The translations under genes were made by a program, and so were the position numbers. Positions 1,632-12,258 of a stretch of DNA of 12,400 nucleotides are shown one piece after another. The notes under the pieces are model-generated. The model was not told where the DNA came from. It did no database searches and saw only the letters and a list, made by a program, of their open reading frames with translations. This DNA comes from an uncultured Mesorhizobium sp. (GTDB lineage: Bacteria; Pseudomonadota; Alphaproteobacteria; Rhizobiales; Rhizobiaceae): NCBI GenBank assembly GCA_950071955.1, contig CATMOC010000050.1, positions 1 to 12,400 of the forward strand, read 5' to 3'. Positions within the stretch are counted from its first letter, which is position 1; the number at the start of each line of letters is the position of its first letter.

Positions 1632-2951
1632 TCAGTCGGGGACCTTCCGGTGAACCGGGAACCGCGCCACGAATCTGAGGCCGAACGCCGAAAGCACGAG
1701 GAAGAGCCAGACCGGGTCGGCCCTTCGAAAGAAGAAGCTCTCGAGGAACGCGTTCAGCGAGGTGAAGATCAGGATCATCATGAACAGGTCGGCGAGGAAC
1801 ACGTTCTCCCTCCGGTGGCTGACGCGCAGGAAATCCACCATCGGCACCACGAGGAAGGTCATGACCGCCACGACGAGCGCGGGCAGGCCCATGAGAACGG
1901 CGATATCGAGATAGCCGTTGTGGCCGTGCACGATGTTGCGGATATCCCAGCTGCGGTCGAACGGCTGATCCTGGTTGAGGAGGAGCGGCGTTCCCCAGAA
2001 GCTCTCGTAGCCGTATCCGAACCATGGGCGGTTCGCCAGCATGTCGAGTGAAAAGCTCCAGAGCGCGGTCCGGCCCGTGTAGGTCAAGCCGGGCGAGAGC
2101 TGCTGGGACAATTCCCACAGCGGGCGTGAGATCACGATGCCGACGGTGGCGACGGCGGACAGTATCAAAGCGACGGCGAAGATGACCGGGACGAGCCGGC
2201 GCATACCGAAGATGCTCGGACCCATCACCATGACGATCGCCAGTGGCACGATCCCCGCCGTCGTCTTCGACCCGGTGTTCGACAGGAAGTACAGGGCGGT
2301 GACGAAGAGGATGAACCCCGACCGGCGTCTGCCGCGGCGAAAAAGATAGAGTCCGGCGAAAGACAGGGCCGCCATCACCGGGCCGGCTACGTTTTTGTGC
2401 GAAAACAGTCCCCGCCAGAGACCGGCGTGCTGCGGTTCGGCGGAAGCCGACGTGTGGATGGCGATGCCCGGATAGAGGAAGAGGCCGGCATAGCAGAGAA
2501 CCACGACCAGGATTCCCGCGACTCCCAATACGGTAGAGAATGAGTCGGCGTCGCGCGGAACGGTCAGCACCGCGGCAACGGTGATGATGCCGATGAAGGT
2601 GAAGAGGGCGGTTCGAAAGGCCCCCATCGGGTCCGTCGCGTTGAGCACCGAGAGCATGAAGAAGGCCATCATCAGCAGCCACCAGGGGCTGAGGAGGGAC
2701 GTCAGCACGCGCCGGTCCACGAAGGCGAAGAGGCTGAAGACGGCCGCGGCGCCGAGGGCGCTGAACCCGATCTGGTTGACGATGTCGCCACCCGCCGCTT
2801 CAGGGCCGGCAGGATCGAACGGTCGGAAGGAAATCATGATGATCGCGAACAGGATGGTGGCGATCACCGTCGCTACGGTGCGCCGCGAAATCCGCGAGGC
2901 GATCGCCGCCGCGTCAGTTCTTTTCAGCGTGGCGGTATTGTTCATTCGCAT
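1632..2951 (-). CDS. O-antigen ligase/ExoQ-like polysaccharide polymerase (Wzy type)
   Basis: This 439-residue inner-membrane protein has about ten to eleven hydrophobic segments. It fits the O-antigen ligase/polymerase superfamily (Wzy_C domain; rhizobial ExoQ and WaaL relatives). Diagnostic elements are GLWRGLFSHKN (177-187), SNTGSKTT (224-231), TGRTALW (292-298), FGYGYESFW (311-319) and GHNGYLDI (343-350) at the large periplasmic loop. Its likely role is joining undecaprenyl-linked repeat units in the periplasm. Sequence alone does not separate a polymerase from a ligase, but the surrounding EPS-type genes favour polymerase. The start is ATG 2951 or ATG 2945; both lie inside the upstream glycosyltransferase frame, which ends at 2914. 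That gives an overlap of 38 or 32 bp and suggests coupled translation. The first 25 residues are basic and precede the first membrane segment. Confidence 0.85.
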   Translation of the reverse strand: MRMNNTATLKRTDAAAIASRISRRTVATVIATILFAIIMISFRPFDPAGPEAAGGDIVNQIGFSALGAAAVFSLFAFVDRRVLTSLLSPWWLLMMAFFMLSVLNATDPMGAFRTALFTFIGIITVAAVLTVPRDADSFSTVLGVAGILVVVLCYAGLFLYPGIAIHTSASAEPQHAGLWRGLFSHKNVAGPVMAALSFAGLYLFRRGRRRSGFILFVTALYFLSNTGSKTTAGIVPLAIVMVMGPSIFGMRRLVPVIFAVALILSAVATVGIVISRPLWELSQQLSPGLTYTGRTALWSFSLDMLANRPWFGYGYESFWGTPLLLNQDQPFDRSWDIRNIVHGHNGYLDIAVLMGLPALVVAVMTFLVVPMVDFLRVSHRRENVFLADLFMMILIFTSLNAFLESFFFRRADPVWLFLVLSAFGLRFVARFPVHRKVPD

Positions 2952-3912
2952 AGCCGAATTCGGCCAGGATCCGGCCGAGCGCCACGTGGACGGGATAGAG
3001 TGCTGCCGACATCGAACCGGTGCGTAGAAGACTGGCGGTTGCCCTGAGCGGTGACGCCGCCAGCAGCGCGAGGCTCTTCGCCGCCACTCGCAGAGACCCG
3101 AAAGGGCTGCCGGCGCGCTTTCTCTTTTCCACCAGTGTCGAGATCACCCCGTTGCGGAGCGAGCGCGAGCGGATCCATTCGTTTTCGAGCCGTCTGTCGG
3201 GGATCGTCTCCACCACCACCGCTTCCGCGCACCAGCCGAGATTGAAGCCCTTGGTCGCGGCGCGGCTCAGGAAATCGGAATCGCCGCCGCCCATGAAATT
3301 GAACAGAGGATCGAGGAAGGGGCGAGGCATGGCATCCAGCACGCGTTTCGAAACGAGAAGATTGCCGGAGGAGTAGAGGGCATCGACGCGGCCCGTTTCG
3401 CCGTAGGGCGGCGAGAAGACGGGGTGGTTGCGCCAGTGATCGCTGTCGGGGCGCGCGAATTCCGGCACCTGCGGACCGCCGACGATGTCGGCGTCCAGGC
3501 TTTCTGCTGCCGCGCACATTCGTTCGAGCCAGTCGTGGCGGGCGATCTCGTCATCGTCGATCACCTGCACGTAGCGCAGATTGGGGAACTCCGAGAGCGC
3601 GGTCGACCAGCCGGCATTGTAGGCGCAGCAGTTGCCGCGCTCGTGGGCGATGATGAGGACGCCCCTCACTGTTCCGTTTTCGAACAGCGGTGCGGCGGCA
3701 TCGGCTCCGGCGTGCCGTTCTGCGTCATTCTCCATGACCACGAGCGCGAACTTGCGTGCCGTCGCCTGTGCCATCACGGATTCGATCGTTGCGAGAAGCT
3801 GCTCGGGTCGCTTGTAGGTGGGCAAGGTGACTGCGATCTCGATGGAATCGCGCGAAAGCCCGGGAGACCGGGCTACGACCGTGATGTTCTCGGAACTGGA
3901 GATCGGCGGCAT
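2914..3912 (-). CDS. Family 2 (GT-A fold) glycosyltransferase
   Basis: This 332-residue cytosolic or membrane-associated transferase most likely adds one sugar to the lipid-linked repeat unit. The N-terminal GT2 domain shows AVTLPTYKRPEQLLATIESV (27-46), the acidic metal/nucleotide-sugar site VIDDDE (117-122) and the GGGDSDFLSRA acceptor-side loop (208-218), which replaces the more usual ED pair. The C-terminal third is rich in Arg/Ala/Leu (about 245-315), with a weakly hydrophobic stretch at 278-295 that may touch the membrane but is not a clear transmembrane helix. Neither donor nor acceptor can be predicted. It is the first gene of a minus-strand pair with the polymerase and is divergent from the GT-B gene across a 176-bp region. 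The start at 3912 is preceded by AGGTG. A 7-bp inverted repeat lies 13 bases before the start codon. Confidence 0.85.
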   Translation of the reverse strand: MPPISSSENITVVARSPGLSRDSIEIAVTLPTYKRPEQLLATIESVMAQATARKFALVVMENDAERHAGADAAAPLFENGTVRGVLIIAHERGNCCAYNAGWSTALSEFPNLRYVQVIDDDEIARHDWLERMCAAAESLDADIVGGPQVPEFARPDSDHWRNHPVFSPPYGETGRVDALYSSGNLLVSKRVLDAMPRPFLDPLFNFMGGGDSDFLSRAATKGFNLGWCAEAVVVETIPDRRLENEWIRSRSLRNGVISTLVEKRKRAGSPFGSLRVAAKSLALLAASPLRATASLLRTGSMSAALYPVHVALGRILAEFGYANEQYRHAEKN

Positions 3913-3925
3913 CTGGGCACCTGGC

Positions 3926-3948
3926 TGCGCTTGGCTCCATAAAGCGCA
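3926..3948 (-). promoter_or_regulatory. Inverted repeat in the glycosyltransferase leader
   Basis: A perfect 7-bp inverted repeat, TGCGCTT (3926-3932) and AAGCGCA (3942-3948), is separated by 9 bases. It ends 13 bases upstream of the GT2 start codon on the minus strand. In RNA it would form a hairpin just upstream of the ribosome-binding site. In DNA it could be an operator. Short repeats like this also arise by chance in GC-rich DNA, so the assignment is tentative. Confidence 0.3.
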
Positions 3949-3955
3949 TCCCCTG

Positions 3956-3970
3956 TTAAGACATGGTTAA
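3956..3970. promoter_or_regulatory. Perfect CtrA-type binding site (TTAA-N7-TTAA)
   Basis: TTAA at 3956-3959, seven bases, then TTAA at 3967-3970, give an exact match to the alphaproteobacterial CtrA consensus TTAA-N7-TTAA. It lies in the 176-bp divergent region, 43 bp before the GT2 start and 118 bp before the GT-B start, so it could serve either gene. TTAA is rare in DNA of this composition, which makes a chance pair at exactly this spacing less likely. CtrA binding itself is inferred. Confidence 0.55.
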
Positions 3971-4025
3971 GCAATGGAGGAAGAAGGCGGACAGGCGAGC
4001 CGCGAATCCGGTTCCTGCGGCATGG

Positions 4026-4042
4026 CGATTGCGTGGCTTAAG
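4026..4042 (+). promoter_or_regulatory. Partial copy of the GCGTGGCTTAA promoter motif
   Basis: GCGTGGCTTAA at 4031-4041 is identical over 11 bases to 8442-8452, just upstream of the GumC-like gene. Over the 17-base alignment (4026-4042 against 8437-8453) 13 positions agree. It lies 47 bp before the start of the GT-B glycosyltransferase, on the same strand. The function is unknown; a shared regulator site or promoter element for the polysaccharide genes is the natural reading. Confidence 0.4.
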
Positions 4043-4088
4043 CAAGATTTCACAGCGTCACGCTATCGGAAGACATCAGGTAACCGAC

Positions 4089-5261
4089 ATGCATCTCATC
4101 TTCGTCACATCGCTCGTCCCCGACGGGGAACCCGGGACCGGATACGAGATCGCCAGCGCGGCGATCATCGCCGCTCTGCGCCGTGCGGGTGCGCGTGTCA
4201 CGATCCTCGGCTACTCGTGGCCGGGCAGGCCGCCGTCCGATCCGGAGAACACCGTTTCGCTCGGAGAGATCAACGTCCGCACGGAAGGTGCCCCGGCGCT
4301 TCAGAAGGCGAAATGGTTGGCGGAAGCGCTGATGTCGGGCGTGACCTTCGCATCCGCAAAGCTGAGAGCGACGAACGAAGCGGACGTTCGTAGCGCGCTC
4401 CAGCGGGTCGGTCCCTTCGACGCCTATGTCATCAACGGCGTGCAACTGGTGGGCGCGTTCGAGACCCTGTTCTCGGACAAGCCCTCGATCTTCATCGCCC
4501 ACAATGTCGAGCACCGTTCCGCCGCGGAGAACGCCGAGGCCGTCCAGGACATCGTGCAGCGCATACTGTTCACGCGCGAGGCACGCTTGCTCAGGCAGAT
4601 CGAGGCGCGGCTTTGCCATCGATCCAGCTTCACCTTCACGCTCGCCGAGGAAGACCGTGCCGCCCTCGGCGTGGCCAGCGAGGATCGTTCGGCGGCGCTT
4701 CCGCTCGTGACCCGGCCGTTCGTTGAGGAAATGCTGGCCAGCCGCGAGATCGCCTGCGACGCCGCTCTCATCGGAACGTGGAGCTGGCAGCCGAACCGCA
4801 TCGGCCTGGAATGGTTTTTGCGGGAGGTGACACCCTGGCTCCCGAGAAACTTCCGGACGCAGGTGGCGGGACACATACCGGCGGGGCTGAAAGCCCCGTA
4901 TGGCGTCGAATTTATCGGGCGGGTGGAGGATGCGAAGGCATTCGTCCGGGGCGCGGCGGTGCTGCCGCTGATCGCACAGGCGGGCACGGGCGTCCAGCTA
5001 AAGACAATCGAGGCGTTCGAGCTCGGCCTGCCCTGCATCGCGACGTCGCGCTCGCTGCGAGGCATCAGCTATCTTCCCGCCAATTGCCGCGTTGTGGACG
5101 ATCCGTCGGCGTTCGCGGCAGCGCTCGCGGAGGCGGCGTCGGAGAGAATGCCGGACGTCGACGGACGCCAGTTCCACCAGGCGCAACTGCGCGCGCTTGA
5201 CGAAAAGATCGTTCTGGGTCTTTCCAAGCTCGCCTCTACCCGCGGAAAGGCCGCGGCATGA
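4089..5261 (+). CDS. GT-B fold glycosyltransferase (GT4-like)
   Basis: This 390-residue transferase is expected to add a sugar to the growing lipid-linked unit on the cytoplasmic face. The N-terminal Rossmann domain starts MHLIFVTSLVPDGEPGTGYEI (1-21) and includes FIAHNVEHR (135-143). The second domain has GTWSWQPNRIGLEWFL (229-244), typical of GT4-like proteins, and the donor-binding GTGVQLKTIEAFELGLPCIATS block (299-320) containing the E-x7-type acidic positions. The start is set at 4089. The longer frame from 3963 begins inside the CtrA-type box and adds 42 residues with no family character. Upstream pairing is modest (AGGT eleven bases before the ATG). The stop shares an ATGA with the next gene, so the two are translationally coupled. 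Sugar specificity cannot be read from the sequence. Confidence 0.85.
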   Translation: MHLIFVTSLVPDGEPGTGYEIASAAIIAALRRAGARVTILGYSWPGRPPSDPENTVSLGEINVRTEGAPALQKAKWLAEALMSGVTFASAKLRATNEADVRSALQRVGPFDAYVINGVQLVGAFETLFSDKPSIFIAHNVEHRSAAENAEAVQDIVQRILFTREARLLRQIEARLCHRSSFTFTLAEEDRAALGVASEDRSAALPLVTRPFVEEMLASREIACDAALIGTWSWQPNRIGLEWFLREVTPWLPRNFRTQVAGHIPAGLKAPYGVEFIGRVEDAKAFVRGAAVLPLIAQAGTGVQLKTIEAFELGLPCIATSRSLRGISYLPANCRVVDDPSAFAAALAEAASERMPDVDGRQFHQAQLRALDEKIVLGLSKLASTRGKAAA

Positions 5262-6040
5262 ATATTCAGAGCGTCCGGCACCTCAGCTCTCCTGTCGCGG
5301 AAACGCGGCCGACGCGGAACATCCTCGGCGTCGATGTCGCACCTCTTTCCTGGAGCGAAGCGATCGACGTTCTGGAGCGCCGCATGAGGGAGCGGCGGTT
5401 CACGAAGGTCGGGTTCCTCAACGCCCATGCCGCCAATTCGGCGTCCGCCGATCCCGCATACGCAGCGGCGATGCAGGACTTTATGGTGCTGCCCGACGGC
5501 GTCGGCGTCGACATGGCATCGCGCATGCTGTACGGCGCCAACTTTCCCGCAAACCTCAATGGCACCGATCTTGTCCCGGCCTTCCTGAAGGCGCTCGCAA
5601 CGCCGGTAAGGGTCGGCCTCCTGGGCACATCGCGCCGCAACGTCGAAGTCGCAGCGGAAAACCTCCGGGCGATGCTGCCCCAGCACGAGATCATCGTCGT
5701 CAGCGACGGCTTCTTCTCCGACCGCGAGGAGAGCGGCATCCTCGAACGGCTCAGGCAACTGCGCCCCGACGTCCTGCTGGTGGCGATGGGTGTTCCGCGC
5801 CAGGAATTGTGGATGGACCGGAACCTGACGGATCAGCACTGCACGCTAGCCTTCGCGGTCGGCGCCTTGCTGGATTTCATGAGCGGAGCGGTGCCTCGCG
5901 CGCCTACCTGGATCAGGCGGTCGCGGCTCGAATGGCTTTTCCGCCTTATCCTGGAGCCGTCGCGCCTCTGGAGGCGGTACATGATCGGGAATCCCGTGTT
6001 CCTCATCAGGATCGTGCGGCAATTGCTGCTCGGAAGGTGA
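5258..6040 (+). CDS. WecG/TagA/CpsF family glycosyltransferase (GT26)
   Basis: This 260-residue protein belongs to the family that transfers an N-acetyl-hexosamine, or its uronic acid, onto a polyprenyl-diphosphate-linked sugar. Examples are WecG (ManNAcA) and TagA (ManNAc). Recognisable elements are FLNAHAANSA (53-62), LPDGVGV (78-84), NGTDLVPAFL (101-110), GLLGTSRRNVE (120-130), VAMGVPRQELWM (175-186) and FAVGALLDFMSGAVPRAP (199-216). The C-terminal LEWLFRLILEPSRLWRRY appendage (224-241) is rich in Arg and aromatics; in this family it contributes to membrane attachment. NGTD replaces the more usual xGxD (e.g. AGSD). The start overlaps the previous stop by 4 bp (ATGA). The third gene of the operon follows 13 bp downstream. 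In this pathway it probably makes the second or third glycosidic bond of the repeat. Confidence 0.92.
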   Translation: MNIQSVRHLSSPVAETRPTRNILGVDVAPLSWSEAIDVLERRMRERRFTKVGFLNAHAANSASADPAYAAAMQDFMVLPDGVGVDMASRMLYGANFPANLNGTDLVPAFLKALATPVRVGLLGTSRRNVEVAAENLRAMLPQHEIIVVSDGFFSDREESGILERLRQLRPDVLLVAMGVPRQELWMDRNLTDQHCTLAFAVGALLDFMSGAVPRAPTWIRRSRLEWLFRLILEPSRLWRRYMIGNPVFLIRIVRQLLLGR

Positions 6041-6053
6041 GGGGGCGGTGAAC

Positions 6054-6968
6054 ATGATCGTCCGCCCATCCGATGCGCCCCGGGACGTGCAGTCCGTCGG
6101 GAGTTCCTCCATCGTGACGGCGAGCTATGCGCCGGATTTCGAACGCTGCAAGCTGCTTTGCGAAACCATCGACCGGCACGTCACCGGCTTCTCCAGGCAC
6201 TACATCCTCGTGGAACATTCGGACGTGCCGCTGTTCCGCCAGCTCGAATCGGCGAAGCGGATCGTGATCGACGAGCGCGATCTGCTGCCGCGCTGGCTGC
6301 GCTCGTTCCAGGATCCCACCAGCCTCTTCCGGCGCCGGATCTGGCTCAGTACGCGCACCATGCCGCTCCGCGGCTGGCACGTGCAACAGCTTCGGCGGAT
6401 CGGAATCGCCATGCACGCGCAGGAGGACGGCCTCGTCTACTGCGATTCCGACGTCGTCATCCTCAAGGACTTCGACTGTTCGGTCTTCTGGCGCGACGGC
6501 GACCTGAGGCTGTTCCGCCGCGAAAACGCCGTACCGGACGATCCGGACAGCGAACAGAACCAATGGTCCCGTCATGCGGGCCAAATCCTCGGCATCGAGG
6601 CGCCGGCGTTTTCCCCGCACGACTACATCGCGACCCTGATCGCCTGGCGCCGGGATGCCATCATCGGCATGTGCGAGAGGATCGAGCAGATGAGCGGCCG
6701 CCATTGGGTGGAAGCCATCGGCTCGGCCCGCAAATTCTCCGAATGCATGATCTACGGCCGCTATGCCGACGAAGTGCTCGAAGGCCGGGGCCACTTCTCC
6801 ACGCAGGAGGAACTCTGCAGGATCTACTGGCGGGGTCCGGCTCTCTCCGACGAGAACTTCCGCGCCTTCGTCGACGGCATGTCGCCGCAGCAGGTGGCGA
6901 TCGGGCTCCAATCCTTCATCGGGATGGACATCGGCCGGGTGAGACGGTTGGTCGCCGAAGCGAACTGA
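6054..6968 (+). CDS. DUF6492 family putative glycosyltransferase
   Basis: This protein of about 304 residues has the layout of DUF6492, a family of uncharacterised proteins often found in polysaccharide clusters. It opens with SIVTASYAPDFERCKLLCETI and then HYILVEHSDVPLF, a GT-A-like first half. It then has LVYCDSDVVILKDFD (about 127-141), in which DSD resembles the DxD metal/nucleotide-sugar site of GT-A transferases, and FSECMIYGRYADEVL (about 228-242) carrying a conserved Glu. The function is inferred as a glycosyltransferase or related sugar-modifying enzyme. ATG 6054 is preferred, with a GAGGGGGCGG stretch before it; GTG 6048 is an alternative. It is the last gene of the plus-strand trio. 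It converges on the flippase gene with 45 bp between the stops and no clear terminator there. Confidence 0.75.
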   Translation: MIVRPSDAPRDVQSVGSSSIVTASYAPDFERCKLLCETIDRHVTGFSRHYILVEHSDVPLFRQLESAKRIVIDERDLLPRWLRSFQDPTSLFRRRIWLSTRTMPLRGWHVQQLRRIGIAMHAQEDGLVYCDSDVVILKDFDCSVFWRDGDLRLFRRENAVPDDPDSEQNQWSRHAGQILGIEAPAFSPHDYIATLIAWRRDAIIGMCERIEQMSGRHWVEAIGSARKFSECMIYGRYADEVLEGRGHFSTQEELCRIYWRGPALSDENFRAFVDGMSPQQVAIGLQSFIGMDIGRVRRLVAEAN

Positions 6969-7013
6969 AGCCTTCCCCGATCTGTCGCATCCTCTGCCGC
7001 GAGAGCCGACCCC

Positions 7014-8309
7014 TCAGAACCGCTTCGCCGGCATTTTCATGGCCGAATAGGTCAGGGCGGCGGAGGCGAGATAGAGCGCAAGGAACGCCAGGTTCAGCAT
7101 GACGAGCATCTGGCTCGTGTCGCGCGACCAGAAGAGCAGCGAGGCGAGAAACAGTCCCTTCATCCCGGCCAGGAGGGTCAGGTTTAGCGACCGCAAGAGG
7201 GTCTGGCCGCGCGCGAAGAGGAGTTCCGCCTGGTATTCGACGAGGTTGCGCAGACCCGGAACGCAGAGCACCAGGATGAGCATCGGGGCGGCCTCGGCGA
7301 CGTTTCGGCCGAGCAGATTGGGGAAGAAGTAGAGAAGCCCCGCCAGCCCCAGAAGCCCCAGGGTCGAAATCACGAACACGCCGGCCTCGATGCCCAGGCG
7401 TAACTTGAGGCTGCCGAGCATGTCGCGGGCGCGCATCATCTTCTGGATGAGCATCATCGTGAACGTGCGGATCGGGATCGCCGTCAGATCCACCAGCCGC
7501 ATGATGATTGCGTAGATGCCCGCAAGCTGCGGTCCGCCGATCGCCAGCACCAGGAGCTTGTCCAGTTCCATCTGGAGATAGAACACGACGTCGGCGGCCG
7601 CCACGTAAAGCGCATCCGGCAGCCTGCGGAAGTACAGAGGTATCCTGATGCGAATGCGGCGACGGGGATAGAAGAAGGCCGCCGCCACCAGCAGCGCCGT
7701 CGCGTTGGCGGCGAGGTAGTACAGCAGCCAGTTGTCGAGCCCCGGCGTCGGCGAGAACGAGAAAATCACCGCGGCCACAGCGCGCAGGAAGGTTGCCAGG
7801 ATCGCCAGCGTCGCCGCACGGCCGAACCGGTTCATCCCATTGTTGACTATGAGCGTCACCTCGATCGGGCGCCAGAAGAGGGTCTCGGCGACGATGACGA
7901 GAGCGAAGGCAGTCAGCGCCATCTCGCCGGAGAAGAAGATGGCGTAGGTCATCCAGCTGGCTGCCGCCAGCACCGGGAGCGAGAGCAACGACATCAGGAT
8001 GAAGCCGCCGGTGAAGACGCCGAGGAGAAGCGGCTTGACCGTCGCTATCCGGTAGAGAGGCGAAATGAAGCCGAACCCCAGGATTCGCGACAGCATCACG
8101 CCCGCCGCCGAAGCGGTTGCGAAGAGGCCGAACTCGGCGATCGTGAGGGTATTCGCCAGCGCGACGAAGTAGAACAGCGAGAAGACGAGGCGGCCGGCCG
8201 TGCCGGTGATCGCGGCGGCGTAGTCGCGCAGCACGGTGGACCTCGCCAGCGCGAAATCCACTATACGGTTCAGCCTGTTCGTGCGCGGAAGCCCGCCCAC
8301 CCATGTCAT
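7014..8309 (-). CDS. Wzx-type polysaccharide flippase (MOP superfamily)
   Basis: This hydrophobic protein (431 residues from this start) has about twelve membrane segments in two bundles, separated by the basic loop YPRRRIRIRIPLYFRRLP. It resembles Wzx/RfbX O-antigen and EPS flippases, which move undecaprenyl-diphosphate-linked repeat units to the periplasmic face. Supporting features are the N-terminal GRLVFSLFYFVALANTLTIAEFGLFATASA segment and the central LQMELDKLLVLAIGGPQLAGIYAII segment, the usual re-entry pattern of the family. ATG 8309 is chosen because AGGA lies 8 bases upstream. It also leaves the repeated TAAC boxes and the 17-bp motif in non-coding DNA. ATG 8414 (AAAAGG before it) or GTG 8432 would add 35 or 41 poorly family-like residues. 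Substrate specificity is not predictable. Confidence 0.82.
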   Translation of the reverse strand: MTWVGGLPRTNRLNRIVDFALARSTVLRDYAAAITGTAGRLVFSLFYFVALANTLTIAEFGLFATASAAGVMLSRILGFGFISPLYRIATVKPLLLGVFTGGFILMSLLSLPVLAAASWMTYAIFFSGEMALTAFALVIVAETLFWRPIEVTLIVNNGMNRFGRAATLAILATFLRAVAAVIFSFSPTPGLDNWLLYYLAANATALLVAAAFFYPRRRIRIRIPLYFRRLPDALYVAAADVVFYLQMELDKLLVLAIGGPQLAGIYAIIMRLVDLTAIPIRTFTMMLIQKMMRARDMLGSLKLRLGIEAGVFVISTLGLLGLAGLLYFFPNLLGRNVAEAAPMLILVLCVPGLRNLVEYQAELLFARGQTLLRSLNLTLLAGMKGLFLASLLFWSRDTSQMLVMLNLAFLALYLASAALTYSAMKMPAKRF

Positions 8310-8336
8310 CAGCGGGGTCCTGGCGATGATCGTTCG

Positions 8337-8353
8337 GTTGAGGCACGCTAACG
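8337..8353 (-). promoter_or_regulatory. 17-bp promoter motif, copy facing the flippase gene
   Basis: On the minus strand this reads CGTTAGCGTGCCTCAAC and agrees at 14 of 17 positions with CTTTAGCGTGGCTTAAC at 8437-8453 on the plus strand. The pair is therefore an inverted repeat with one copy directed at each divergent gene. This copy ends 27 bp before the flippase start. A second CGCTAACG (plus strand) lies at 8402-8409, besides the one inside this copy at 8346-8353. The regulator is unknown. Confidence 0.45.
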
Positions 8354-8360
8354 GGGAAAT

Positions 8361-8419
8361 CTTAACGGCCCGTTCGGCGGAGCGGTCGAATTTCAACCGA
8401 TCGCTAACGCTCATTAACC
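8361..8419. promoter_or_regulatory. Cluster of TTAAC/CTAAC boxes in the divergent promoter region
   Basis: The region between the flippase start and the GumC-like gene holds several short related boxes: CTTAACG at 8361-8367, GCTAACG at 8403-8409 and ATTAACC at 8413-8419. These add to the two outer 17-bp copies. TTAAC is also the preferred right half of CtrA sites, but none of these three has a good TTAA partner at the N7 distance. The outer copy at 8438-8452 has an imperfect one (TTTA-N7-TTAA). The boxes could be operator half-sites. No convincing -35/-10 pair was recognised. Confidence 0.35.
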
Positions 8420-8436
8420 TTTTGTTTTCCACGTCT

Positions 8437-8453: not shown

Positions 8454-8506
8454 GAATGGCGCCCAGACCCGGTCGTCGCGTCACAGCGTTGAAGAACCTG
8501 CGGAAC

Positions 8507-11245
8507 ATGTCGGAATCAGAAAGCCGCGACCTGCCAGAGAGAAAGGGCTCGCTCCTCAGTCTCGTGAGCGCACGCTCGCGGGAACGCGGCGATTCGGCTG
8601 GGCCGGAAAGCCGGGAAGCCGAACCGGTCGACTGGAAGAGCTATGCGGCGGAGCGGCACCGTCTCGCCCGATCCCGCCGCGAGGCGGCCAAGAGCCCGCT
8701 TCTCGCCGCCCTGTCGAAGGAGCCGATCACGACGAAGGACGATGACGTACCCTTCCGGGAGCAGGAACGGGAACTTCGCGATATCTTCGAAAGTGAGGAT
8801 CGCCCCGCGTCCGAGGTCGCGCGGCCGCAGGCTCGCTCGCAGGCGCCCGAAATAGCCGCCGCCTCTACCGCCCGGCGGTCTCAGGGTCCGGACACGGAGT
8901 TCGAACCCAGAGACCGCGAGCGGCATGCGCGGGCGTCGAATTCCGCGTCGGACGGCGACGGCGATTGGCGGCCGCTCATCGATCCACTCAAGGTAATGGG
9001 CGGAGTTTGGAAGTCCCGCTATCTGATCGTAGGCGCGGCAATCGCTGGAGCGGTCATTGCCGCCTTGCTGGCAATCTCCACTCCCAAGAAATACACTGCT
9101 GGGGCCGAATTGCTGATCGACCCGCGTCAGCTCCAGATCGTCGGTAACGAAGTCACCGGCGGAGGAGGGTTGTCGACCGAAGCCACGCTGGCGATCGTCG
9201 AAAACCAGGTGCGCGTGCTGACGTCCGGCTCCGTGCTGAGCACGGTTGTCGACAAGCTGGGACTGGCAAGCGATCCCGAGTTCAACGGGACCGAAGAAAG
9301 CGCGATCGGACGCTATATTCCGAACATCCGGAAAATTCTCTTCTCGGGCGGAGACACCGCCGATCCTTCGATCCTCCGCAAGGCGCTGGCTGTGGAAACG
9401 CTCGCCAAGTCTCTGGAGGTGCAGCGCGGCGGCAGAACCTTCGTCGTCGAGATTTACGTGGAAACCGAATCACCGGAAAAATCGGCACTGATCGCCAATA
9501 CCCTGACGGAAGTGTTCCTTGAGGCCTACGGGGCGATCCAGTCACGTACCGTCGGCCGGGCATCCGACGAACTGACTCAGCGCCTCGCGGAACTGCGCCG
9601 GAGCGTCGAGGAAGCCGAGCGGAAGGTCGAAACGTTCAAGTCCGAGAACGACATCGTCGATGCGCAAGGCCGGCTCATCTCCGACGACGAGATCGTCAAG
9701 CTCAACGACCAGCTTGGGATCGCACGGGCAAGGACGCTGGAGCTTCAGGCAAGGGCGGATTCGACGCGCGACCTCACCGTCGACGCCATTCTCGCCGGCA
9801 ATCTGCCGGAGCAGATGAGCTCTCCCGTGCTTACCGAGATGCGATCGCAGTATTCACTGCTTCGCCAGGAGGCTGACCGGGTCTCGGCGCGCCTCGGCCC
9901 GCGCCACCCCGAGCGGGTCGCTATCGAGGAGCAGGTCGGGGCGGCGCGCGGGCGCATCGAACAGGAACTCCGCCTCGTCGCGTCCTCCATCCAGGTGGAA
10001 CTGCGCCGCGCGGTCCAGCTCGAACAGGAACTCGCAGCCCGGCTCGCCCAGTTGAAGGCCCGTCAGGCCAATCTCAGCGGCGAACTGGTCACCCTGCGCG
10101 AACTGGAACGCGAGGCCTCGGCCAAGCGCGCCGTCTACGAGGCGTTTCTCCTCAGGGCCCGCGAAACCGGCGAGCAGAAGGACATGAACACCGCCAACGT
10201 CAGCGTCATCTCGGCGGCGATGCCGCCGCTGCAGCCGTCGAGCATGTCGCGCGCCTCGATGACCATCTTCGGCGCGTTCCTCGGTCTCGGGCTCGGCCTG
10301 ATGTTCGGCATCGGCCGCGGCACGTTCGACAGCCTGCGGGACGACGTGCGTTCGCAGGGGGGGGCGCGGGGATCGCGCAGAGACGACACGCCCGCGCCCC
10401 AGCCACCGCAGGGACGGGCTGCCGCCGCCGCCCCTGTCCCCGATCATGAACAGGTTCCGGGTTCGCCCGCGCCGCAGCCGGACATGCAACCGTTCGGCGA
10501 AGCAAGCGTCGGCGCGTACCGGAGTACCGGAATACCGAGTGAAGCGTACGAGGAAAACCAGGCCGGTGAATCGGCCACCACCGCCGAGGAGGCAAGAATG
10601 TATCACACGAAGCCGCAGAATCCGTGGGCTCCCGCCCAGCAGGCTGACCACCCGTCCGCCCCGCAGGGCTACGCGCCGAGCCATCAGGCCGGTCCCGCTT
10701 GGCACGACCGGCGGCATTATGCCCCGGACGCCTACGGGCAGAGCGGTCAGCAGCCGGACTATCCGGCGCATCAGTACCAGCCCTACGGAACACCGCCGGC
10801 ATACGCGCAGGCTCCGTTCCAACCCTATCCGCAGCCGGTCGCCCATCCCTCAGGTTATGGCGACGACAGGAGTCAGGCGGGCTATCCGGGCCACGGAGCC
10901 TATCCTTCCATGCCCATGGGATACGGACAGGCGCCCGTAGCGGGTCCATACTGGCAGCCCGCCCCGCAGGGCGCTCCCGGGGGCTACGGATATCCCGGCG
11001 CAGACCCGCGGCAGGGATTCGGCCCCGCTCCCTACGCGCAGGGAGGCTACAACCCGATGCCCTATCCGCGTCCCTCGCTCGAAGAGGTGCCTGCCCAGCG
11101 GGAAGCGGCTGCCGCGCAGAATGAGAGCAGACAGGCGGCAAGCGCCGACAGCACCGCTATCAACGAGATACGCGAAAGCCTGCGCGAATTCCGCGAGGCG
11201 CTGCGCGAACTGGCCGAGAACAGGGGACGCAGGCGCTTCCTCTGA
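8507..11245 (+). CDS. GumC/Wzc-like polysaccharide co-polymerase without kinase domain
   Basis: This inner-membrane protein of 912 residues is expected to control chain length and export of the polysaccharide. Numbering from the alternative ATG 8456 (929 residues), its order is as follows. First is a charged, probably disordered cytoplasmic N-terminus (1-180). Then come TM1 [19 protein letters not shown] (189-207), a Wzz-type periplasmic domain beginning [11 protein letters not shown], and long coiled coils (about 365-400 and 460-565). The Wzz hinge [14 protein letters not shown] (587-600) leads into TM2 (602-620). A Pro/Tyr/Gly/Gln-rich tail (about 645-870) and a charged C-terminal helix (901-929) finish the protein. 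GumC/ExoP/Wzc proteins often carry or pair with a BY-kinase, but no Walker motifs follow TM2 here. ATG 8507 is preferred because the 8456 ATG directly abuts the 17-bp promoter motif. Neither start has a strong ribosome-binding site. Confidence 0.85.
10357..10364 (+). repeat. Run of eight G residues inside the GumC-like gene
   Basis: A homopolymer of eight G lies in codons 634-637 (numbering from ATG 8456), just after TM2. Adding one G would bring a TGA into frame at 10447-10449, removing the tail. Losing one G would shift into a frame that stays open to about 10940 and encodes an Arg-rich peptide. The frame as given is supported by the coherent tail and the conserved-looking C-terminal helix. 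Confidence 0.7.
10388..11065 (+). other. Low-complexity Tyr/Pro/Gly/Gln-rich tail region of the GumC-like protein
   Basis: About 225 residues are dominated by Pro, Gln, Ala, Gly and Tyr, with some 21 tyrosines between residues 688 and 870. They recur in short units such as GYG, PYPQP, AYPS, GYGQAP and PYAQGGY. No exact DNA tandem repeat was seen, so the similarity is at peptide level. The composition recalls disordered cytoplasmic linkers and tyrosine clusters of BY-kinases, but no kinase is present. A roughly 30-residue charged helix, beginning [20 protein letters not shown], follows at 11156-11242. Confidence 0.8.
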
Positions 11246-11264: not shown

Positions 11265-11358
11265 GTTTACGGCACCGGACGGCGCATTGTCGCGCTTATC
11301 GCGGGACGAAATGTCGGATAAGGCTCCCCGCATTCCAATAGAGTACGGGGAGTTTCGC

Positions 11359-12258
11359 ATGGCGGACGTGATCGACGGAAAGAAAGTCGCCGAAGAGGTC
11401 CTGGCTTCGGTCAAGCAGGAAGCGGACAAGCTCATCGCCGAGACCGGCGTCACGCCGGGGATCGCCGTCGTCATTGTCGGCGAGGATCCGGCAAGTCAAG
11501 TCTACGTCAATTCCAAGTCGCGCAAGGCCAAGGAGTGTGGCTTCCACTCCGTCAAGCACACGCTCGCGGAAGACACGTCCGAGGCCGACCTGCTGGCGCT
11601 GATCGGCAAGCTCAACGACGATCCGGAGATACACGGCATCTTGGTGCAACTGCCGCTGCCGAGACATATCGATTCCGGCCGCGTCATTCAGACGATCTCG
11701 CCCGACAAGGACGTCGACGGGTTCCACTTCATCAATGTCGGCAAGCTCGGCACTGGCGAAACCGCCTCGGCCTTCGTGCCCTGCACGCCGGCCGGCTCGA
11801 TGCTGCTCGTCGAACGGGTGCGCGGGCGCGATCTTTCTGGCCTCAGCGCCGTCGTCGTGGGACGCTCCAACATCGTCGGCAAGCCGATGGCGAACCTCTT
11901 GCTCGCCGCCAACTGCACTGTAACGATCGCGCACAGCCGCACGAAAGACCTTCCGGGGCTCTGCCGTACCGCCGACATCCTGGTCGCGGCGGTCGGTCGG
12001 CCGGAGATGGTCAAGGGCGACTGGGTGAAGCCCGGCGCCACCGTCATCGACGTCGGCATCAACCGGATCGAAGCTCCCGAGCGCGGAGAGGGCAAGACGC
12101 GGCTCGTCGGCGACGTCGAGTTCGCGGAAGCCGAGAAGGTCGCGGGTGCCATCACGCCGGTACCAGGCGGCGTCGGGCCGATGACAATCGCCATGCTCAT
12201 GGCCAACACGCTGGTATCGGCATGCCGCAGGGCCGGCAGGGAGCCGCCGCGTTTCTGA
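11359..12258 (+). CDS. folD: Bifunctional 5,10-methylene-THF dehydrogenase / methenyl-THF cyclohydrolase
   Basis: This cytosolic enzyme interconverts 5,10-methylene-, methenyl- and 10-formyl-tetrahydrofolate, supplying one-carbon units and NADPH. The 299-residue protein shows the catalytic-region [14 protein letters not shown] (Tyr and Lys of the active site, about 50-63), [13 protein letters not shown] (about 95-107), [17 protein letters not shown], the dinucleotide-binding [17 protein letters not shown], and the signature [20 protein letters not shown] near the end. All key family motifs are intact. The start at 11359 has GGGGAG at seven bases and gives the normal N-terminus [14 protein letters not shown]. 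The longer frame from 11287 is rejected. It is a housekeeping gene with no obvious functional tie to the polysaccharide genes. The upstream hairpin and the 113-bp gap suggest its own promoter. Confidence 0.96.

Follow-up and report, generated by a model that had tools for sequence, protein, structure and literature searches.

Polysaccharide co-polymerases (PCPs) of the Wzc/ExoP type (PCP-2a) carry a kinase on the cytoplasmic side, and the tyrosines of Wzc are clustered at its C-terminal end; GumC of Xanthomonas is of a kinase-less co-polymerase type. In PCP-2b pairs, according to PMC12004946, the last 27-29 co-polymerase residues bind a separate kinase or pseudokinase. PssP2 of Rhizobium leguminosarum is presented in PMC4182512 as a co-polymerase that lacks kinase motifs and has a long cytoplasmic part said to retain a kinase-like fold. 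Here, we analyze a kinase-less co-polymerase gene from an uncultured Mesorhizobium sp., carried on a 12,400-nucleotide stretch (positions 1 to 12,400 of contig CATMOC010000050.1, hereafter the window) of draft assembly GCA_950071955.1 (3.97 Mb, 611 contigs, 70% complete). The two cytoplasmic ends of its product are conserved, and related genomes have repeatedly lost the core of the protein while keeping both ends in frame. We consider it probable that these ends form an autonomous adaptor module that is carried by the co-polymerase and also works without it.

The gene occupies an open reading frame (ORF) at 8456..11245 on the forward strand, as do all of the features of the protein given below, and encodes 929 aa counted from the first start. 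The ATG at 8507 is the likely true start because the homologues P0001 and P0002 have 911 and 912 aa (P, G, and L numbers are our handles for proteins, genomes, and loci). Among the matches listed, the nearest proteins are from Aquibium sp. LZ166 (98% identity) and A. oceanicum (83%). Pfam places a Wzz domain at 8987..9259 (34 bits; cut-off, 25.5) and a near-cut-off GNVR-like domain at 10094..10318 (E value of 3.5e-6; 27.3 bits against a cut-off of 27.7), and hydropathy places one transmembrane segment within each, TM1 at about 9023-9079 and TM2 at about 10259-10315 (residues 190-208 and 602-620 of the 929-aa frame). As in other PCP-2 proteins, the two segments flank a periplasmic domain with a Wzc-like fold: the protein gave a profile match to Wzc sequences (E value of 2.5e-8), and the top Foldseek matches of its model were Wzc chains (E value of 1.3e-10), with low template-modeling scores of 0.24 and 0.31. 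All structure models were of single chains. The gene is a kinase-less GumC/Wzz-type PCP gene of a Wzx/Wzy-type locus.

Approximately 170 residues precede TM1 and approximately 310 follow TM2. The N-terminal part holds box 1 (R..SLLSL; 8507..8566) and box 2 (8633..8704). TM2 is followed by a Pro/Ala/Gly/Gln/Tyr-rich linker (10319..11152) and then by a C-terminal heptad helix, IxEIRxSLREFRxAVRxLxExRxRRR (11153..11242). From residue 646 onward, the 284-residue tail contains 21 Tyr, 47 Pro, 48 Ala, 29 Gly, and 28 Gln; the tyrosines are scattered across the linker and none falls in the last 30 residues, so the protein does not have the C-terminal tyrosine cluster of a bacterial tyrosine kinase (BY-kinase) of the PCP-2a type. 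The linker is disordered, with an AlphaFold2 predicted local distance difference test score (pLDDT) below 50 for nearly all residues from 620 to 877 (912-aa numbering), and the terminal helix reaches 78 to 93 in three ten-residue blocks (881 to 910). Box 2 scores 81 to 84 in the full-length model; box 1 has a low pLDDT in that model and is predicted as a helix in a 188-residue soluble relative.

The initial annotation of this DNA, made from the sequence alone, had described a GumC/Wzc-like protein that has, in place of a kinase, a low-complexity stretch rich in tyrosine followed by a charged helix, and Pfam, composition, and AlphaFold2 all bear out that description. No Pfam kinase or AAA domain was found in the window co-polymerase, and NCBIfam kinase models matched its PCP part only, far under cut-off; TIGR01005 (ExoP-type) scored 161.5 bits against a cut-off of 411.7, with a match ending at residue 604, which places the protein outside that family. 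A Walker A pattern is not present in the near copies P0001 and P0002 and occurs as isolated matches in 3 of the 120 listed homologues (P0061, P0089, and P0114). There is no sign of a kinase hidden by a frameshift, as folD lies directly downstream and no kinase domain was found in the precomputed Pfam lists of the best 120 homologues. Similarly, no kinase or kinase-fold partner gene was found among the ten window proteins scanned with Pfam, a scan that a strongly diverged pseudokinase could escape.

The search for an orphan BY-kinase, which the annotation had proposed, covered a set of relatives that includes G001, G002, G003, and G004. The nearest closed genome, G001, gave no TIGR01007 match above cut-off; its best candidate is a 278-aa frame that adjoins a MinE-like frame and that we take to be MinD, and a 718-aa ExoP-like protein shows weak AAA_31 similarity at its end. 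Three other genomes of the same genus, G002, G003, and G004, encode ExoP-type kinases in 798-aa frames, so a kinase acting in trans is possible there. The source genome has another, ExoP-like co-polymerase (L202, G000:C13), near an ORF that is presumably a sugar-phosphate transferase.

Within the cytoplasmic parts, conservation is concentrated toward the two ends of the protein. A homologue search returned 813 proteins at an E value of ≤0.001 among 7993 scored, and the best 120 were aligned with the window protein. The modal-residue fraction per block was 0.54 to 0.90 in the core, 0.18 to 0.34 in the linker, and 0.70 and 0.65 in the last two blocks. At the N-terminus, box 1 (residues 1 to 20) and box 2 (approximately residues 43 to 66) reached 0.53 and 0.60, compared with 0.21 to 0.34 in the intervening and following blocks as far as residue 140. 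The last 30 residues aligned in 118 of the 120 listed homologues; the exceptions are P0010, which is partial and without the tail, and P0035, which ends in unrelated residues. The alignment has 120 rows that extend to the helix, namely, the window protein and 119 homologues, among them P0035 with its unrelated end; L10 occurs in 119 of these rows, R7 in 116, and R14 and A16 in 113. A strict regular expression recovers the helix in 108 homologues, and the other ten carry substitutions such as Ala for Arg at position 11.

The linkers of these 118 homologues, by comparison, range from 58 to 343 residues (median, 235.5), and even those of 58 residues still carry the helix. Their tyrosine content ranges from 0 to 9.2% with a median of 5.4%, compared with a median of 1.1% in the PCP cores of these homologues, and is ≥2.5% in 108 linkers and <2.5% in 10. 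Tyrosine enrichment is thus typical of the linkers but varies in degree. In some linker columns, up to 95 of the 119 rows have Tyr; in a gappy low-complexity alignment, this could reflect either the choice of the aligner or real conservation. The tyrosines had at first been taken as the main feature of the tail, an emphasis that fits neither the Tyr-poor and short linkers that keep the helix nor the middles of the core-less forms described below, which have 0 to 11 Tyr and likewise keep it. The possibility that the tail is nonconserved filler was half right, as it fits the linker and not the terminal helix. Given a linker so variable in length and tyrosines and ends so conserved, the helix and the N-terminal boxes, not the tyrosines, are the finding. 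A role of the tail as a scaffold or localizing segment, also raised at the outset, is possible.

In the genomes searched (10 for the helix and 12 for the boxes), neither the helix nor the boxes turned up in any gene but this one. A helix profile matched in 25 of 121 genomes of the family (E values of 5e-17 to 7e-4), once in each, with a second weak match in G102, and folD lay in the fetched flank of 24 of these 25. When ten genomes were searched to an E value of 10, the next best match had an E value of 0.086 and no consistent gene emerged. A model of the boxes matched the co-polymerase gene in 10 of 12 genomes (E values of 2.7e-35 to 1.3e-5), box 2 giving strong matches solely at that gene; in G163, which is without the gene, and G123, which has lost box 2, nothing was stronger than an E value of 0.012. 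We also considered mimicry of a PopZ client helix. A position-specific scoring matrix of the helix gave this idea no support, scoring the N-terminal PopZ motif, PSMEEILASIRRII, at -5.2 bits, compared with 2.8 to 50.4 for eight co-polymerase-locus helices among the same ORFs and a median ORF maximum of -14.5, and PopZ was absent from the next matches.

In a deeper sample of 16 co-polymerase stretches without a helix match, SLL occurs within the first 110 residues in 9, and a candidate C-terminal helix can be picked by eye in 14; G066 and G094 end without one. The hydrophobic a/d heptad pattern of the window helix, and of 12 of these 14 eye-picked segments, was matched by 0 to 1.2% of 2000 shuffles each. 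Two further observations concern these regions. In G089, a paralogous co-polymerase (L203:1428-3590, a 721-residue frame) has an N-terminal SSLLSL stretch resembling box 1. The linkers of Mesorhizobium and G123 proteins (for example, L052:5155-6162, L054:5558-6121, and L020:1501-2475) repeatedly contain a short, basic amphipathic stretch (such as GRIGALISRLRKAMSRK) that could touch the membrane; scoring of this third segment in several Mesorhizobium proteins did not demonstrate conservation.

The strongest evidence comes from natural deletions. We found the helix in 140 of 146 Mesorhizobium genomes (the genus of G089, as judged from its protein P0122) and fetched all 20 cases in which the best helix match lay in a frame of <400 residues. 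Thirteen of these encode soluble proteins of 188 to 363 residues that consist of box 1, box 2, linker, and helix, with no membrane segment by hydropathy; three of the thirteen (G238, G089, and G260) retain the end of the GNVR part. Another three, at L059:6079-7044 (G147), L060:291-1268 (G265), and L061:5117-6067 (G165), are hairpins of two transmembrane segments without the periplasmic domain, which keep the boxes and a helix that is 2 to 3 residues shorter. Sixteen core-less Mesorhizobium genes therefore hold both boxes and the helix in one frame. The remaining four are G150 and G208, which lie at contig ends, G204, with the helix only, and G199, with boxes and helix in different frames. Outside the genus, G123 has box 1 and the helix without the core and has lost box 2. 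In the AlphaFold2 model of the 188-residue soluble form, separate helices were predicted, with no packing of boxes against the C-terminal helix and no confident common fold (predicted template-modeling score [pTM], 0.24).

Public databases hold proteins of the same type, many of them annotated as hypothetical proteins in Mesorhizobium strains. Of 81 screened (P0127, with an E value of 2.3, was left out), 20 satisfy strict criteria for the two boxes and the helix together. Nineteen of these 20 have 188 to 363 residues and lack a membrane segment; a good many of the other screened proteins are partial or come from very short contigs. None of nine core-less proteins scanned reached a Pfam cut-off and none of five an NCBIfam cut-off; G238 has a weak GNVR/ExoP remnant, and P0122 has GNVR in the precomputed list. 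No paper on the tail or the core-less forms was found among the best literature matches, judged by title or the start of the abstract in a search that left out most subscription journals. As far as the libraries and literature searched show, the core-less proteins are an undescribed small-protein family. In Mesorhizobium sp. C264A, a 551-residue tail-less co-polymerase (P0169) and a separate 192-residue tail-and-helix protein (P0197), encoded on contigs of equal length, perhaps represent a split gene or a frame break.

Core loss accompanies loss of the polymer genes. At the 21 short loci, some of them cut by contig ends, the polymer cluster was not seen within the fetched stretch apart from remnants, namely, Wzy scraps in G179 and G218 and a GT4 gene in G123. 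Because the co-polymerase N-terminus faces the flippase gene, loss of the cluster and loss of the core that spares the N-terminal boxes cannot be one deletion, and at least two events are needed to explain the soluble forms. The hairpin loci also lack a nearby proC, so their history may be different. The six Mesorhizobium genomes in which the helix gave no match show nothing of the gene in the 1.5-kb flanks of folD, where proC or a WecG gene stands instead.

To place these losses, we constructed a tree from 91 folD rows, of which 58 come from full-length Mesorhizobium loci, 20 from short loci, 6 from loci without the gene, and 7 from others; 60 of 120 full-length loci had been fetched, and folD was not found in two. 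Presence or absence of the core requires 10 changes on this tree, and for the soluble group the starred branches by themselves demand 6. A single clade for the 13 soluble Mesorhizobium rows was rejected (P value of the approximately unbiased test, 0.0002) on a 90-row tree without the long-branched G084. The middles of the proteins give further signal: those of G189, G230, and G179 best match full-length tails, those of G226 and G221 do so after each other, and those of G238/G089/G260, of G236/G266/G187/G190, and of the hairpin pair G147/G265 best match one another, with weak matches only for G218 and G123. By our own grouping, this suggests that the core was shed about nine times, in G123, the hairpin clade, G226/G221, G230, G189, G238/G089/G260, G179, G218, and G236/G266/G187/G190; the tree counts changes without direction, and full length is taken as ancestral because the outgroups are full-length. 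With G150 and G208 left out, both ends stayed in one frame in 9 of 11 events (P = 0.0014 against an expectation of one third, with G204 and G199 as failures) or, if two complete losses are also counted as failures, in 9 of 13 (P = 0.009).

Pairwise ratios of nonsynonymous to synonymous change (dN/dS), which rest on small numbers and on pairs that are not independent within sets, indicate that the helix is still constrained in core-less forms and that the boxes are constrained as well, more loosely than in full-length proteins. For the helix, boxes, and middle, respectively, the ratios were 0.16, 0.63, and 0.63 in G238/G089/G260; 0, 0.11, and 1.24 in G226/G221; 0.16, 0.29, and 0.81 in G236/G266/G187/G190; and 0.34, 0.24, and 0.58 in G147/G265/G165. 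G238/G089 alone gave 1.49 for the boxes (1 synonymous and 4 nonsynonymous changes), 0.39 for the middle, and a single nonsynonymous change and no synonymous change in the helix, and G147/G265 alone gave 0.42, 0.70, and 0 for boxes, middle, and helix. Six full-length pairs gave 0 to 0.23 for the boxes, 0.16 to 0.28 for the rest, and 0 to 0.60 for the helix (one pair was without changes).

The adaptor module proposed here would consist of three flexibly tethered docking pieces: boxes 1 and 2 before TM1 and the heptad helix held on a long, disordered P/Y-rich tether after TM2. In an intact ring, each subunit would extend one copy of the module into the cytoplasm, at the place where PCP-2a proteins have their kinase. 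The module would thereby couple the PCP ring in the membrane to a partner that is cytoplasmic or membrane associated, with the reach set by the tether and docking achieved by coiled-coil pairing of the helix. Lineages without the polymer cluster would keep the module as a small protein, either soluble or on a bare two-helix membrane hairpin. The persistence of the module in genomes that have lost the polymer genes speaks for a partner that does not belong to the polymer pathway. On balance, we lean toward a regulatory or scaffolding module whose partner acts in a core cell process, for which reason the core could be shed about nine times while the ends were kept in frame, giving a new small-protein family without a described domain.

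Several observations weigh against this reading. The partner of the cytoplasmic ends was not found, and the case is computational throughout. The independence of the losses depends on a single-gene tree in which 34 of 88 inner branches are weakly supported. The entire gene has been lost in 6 of 146 genomes, which form two groups on the tree; G204 has the helix without the boxes, G199 has the two in different frames, and G123 is without box 2. Since they retain a GNVR piece, G238, G089, and G260 are not bare modules. The helices predicted in the soluble form lack a confident common fold. Few changes underlie the dN/dS values, as the 4:1 and 1:0 counts for the boxes and helix of G238/G089 illustrate; boxes and middle are alike in G238/G089/G260; the boxes are looser in core-less sets (0.11 to 0.63, plus the value of 1.49) than in full-length pairs; and the helix itself reaches 0.60 in the latter.

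Some of these points favor the most serious competing explanation, that the core-less proteins are remnants in decay after the cluster was lost and that the helix of the intact protein serves polysaccharide assembly only, for example, by holding a PCP octamer together. Core loss does accompany cluster loss, complete gene loss occurs, G204 and G199 look eroded, the boxes are less constrained once the core is gone, and a heptad helix on eight subunits could self-associate. Decay, however, does not readily account for ends that stay in one frame in about 9 of 11 events (or 9 of 13), for the low dN/dS of the helix, for an N-terminus spared between two deletions, or for P0145 and P0170, whose ends (27/32 identical residues in the helix and 32/39 at the N-terminus) are more alike than their middles (171/255). 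We regard this explanation as unlikely overall, while giving it a real chance.

Lower still stands the proposal that the P/Y-rich linker drives condensates or polar clustering and that the conserved ends merely tune it. A linker that is disordered, rich in P, Y, G, and Q, and enriched in Tyr in 108 of 118 homologues would suit such a role, but linker length and composition change most while the ends stay. Docking of a stand-alone BY pseudokinase by the terminal helix, in the manner of the last 27-29 residues of CapA, EpsV, and HfsA, is very doubtful. The place and length of the helix are the same, and the mechanism is described in PMC12004946, but no such gene occurs among the window genes or above cut-off in G001, the helix sits past some 280 linker residues rather than directly after TM2, and the core-less forms would be left unexplained. 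Least credible is the suggestion of the initial annotation that the Tyr-rich tail is a phosphorylation substrate controlling assembly for a BY-kinase encoded elsewhere, which the enrichment of linker Tyr over the core and the ExoP-type kinases of G002, G003, and G004 would favor and which found no support in the count of Tyr residues, which is not conserved and drops to zero in some core-less forms, in tyrosines that are spread rather than clustered at the end as in Wzc, or in the window genes and closed G001, which offer no such kinase (none above the TIGR01007 cut-off in the latter).

The gene order of the window is proC (-), Wzy_C (-), GT2 (-), GT4 (+), WecG (+), DUF6492 (+), a putative flippase (-), the co-polymerase (+), and folD (+). 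The Wzx/Wzy-type cluster spans 1632..8432, and the same genes occur in relatives. Pfam identifies a Wzy_C protein (1632-2951, -), a family-2 glycosyltransferase (GT2; 2914-3912, -), a group-1-type glycosyltransferase (GT4; 3963-5261, +), a WecG-type transferase (5258-6040, +), and a DUF6492 protein (6048-6968, +); a membrane protein without a Pfam match (7014-8432, -) is read as the flippase. folD (11287..12258, +), identified by Pfam and the usual downstream neighbor in relatives, begins within ~115 bases of the co-polymerase stop. A longer upstream stretch was read for 18 full-length loci, and all six cluster genes occur in 16 of them; G209 holds five together with a fragment of Wzy where the stretch ends, and G146 holds none. 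The DUF6492 gene is present in 17 of the 18. The PCP coverage measure of this upstream survey is unreliable, having missed G245, which is full-length by blastp.

Some loci depart from this arrangement. L177 (G146) and L041:9230-11056 (G114) have a PCP core and C-terminal helix near proC, and other polysaccharide cluster genes were not seen there. L117 and L179 (G198), as well as L128 (G166), are full-length with the helix, and, contrary to the usual order, folD was not found in their 1.5-kb downstream flanks. At the other end of the window, a chloramphenicol-phosphotransferase-like gene (PF07931; 169-735) adjoins proC and resembles an ordinary member of that small kinase family.

Kinase-less co-polymerases are usually defined by their missing parts, and here natural deletions have separated the pieces much as mutagenesis would. 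They suggest that the inner ends are the part that selection retains once the polymer is abandoned. This makes the idea of a cytoplasmic partner for kinase-less co-polymerases testable, with the core-less proteins of 188 to 363 residues as small baits for a partner search in Mesorhizobium strains.

Compared with described systems, the window protein resembles Wzc/ExoP (PCP-2a) in its Wzz and GNVR-like parts, two membrane segments, Wzx/Wzy-type locus, and sequence and fold matches to Wzc chains, and differs in having no kinase domain, in falling under the TIGR01005 cut-off, in its tyrosines spread through a disordered linker, and in its extra conserved ends. We know of no such long tail and conserved ends in GumC of Xanthomonas. 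With PssP2, as PMC4182512 presents it, the protein shares a rhizobial origin, the absence of kinase motifs, and a long cytoplasmic part, which here is a disordered linker and helix rather than a kinase-like fold. Like CapA-CapB, EpsV-EcpK, and HfsA-HfsB, as treated in PMC12004946, it combines a kinase-less co-polymerase with a C-terminal peptide of ~30 residues that is functional in those systems. Unlike them, the window locus has no stand-alone partner, the peptide lies far from the membrane on a linker, and peptide and N-terminal boxes persist without the co-polymerase core.

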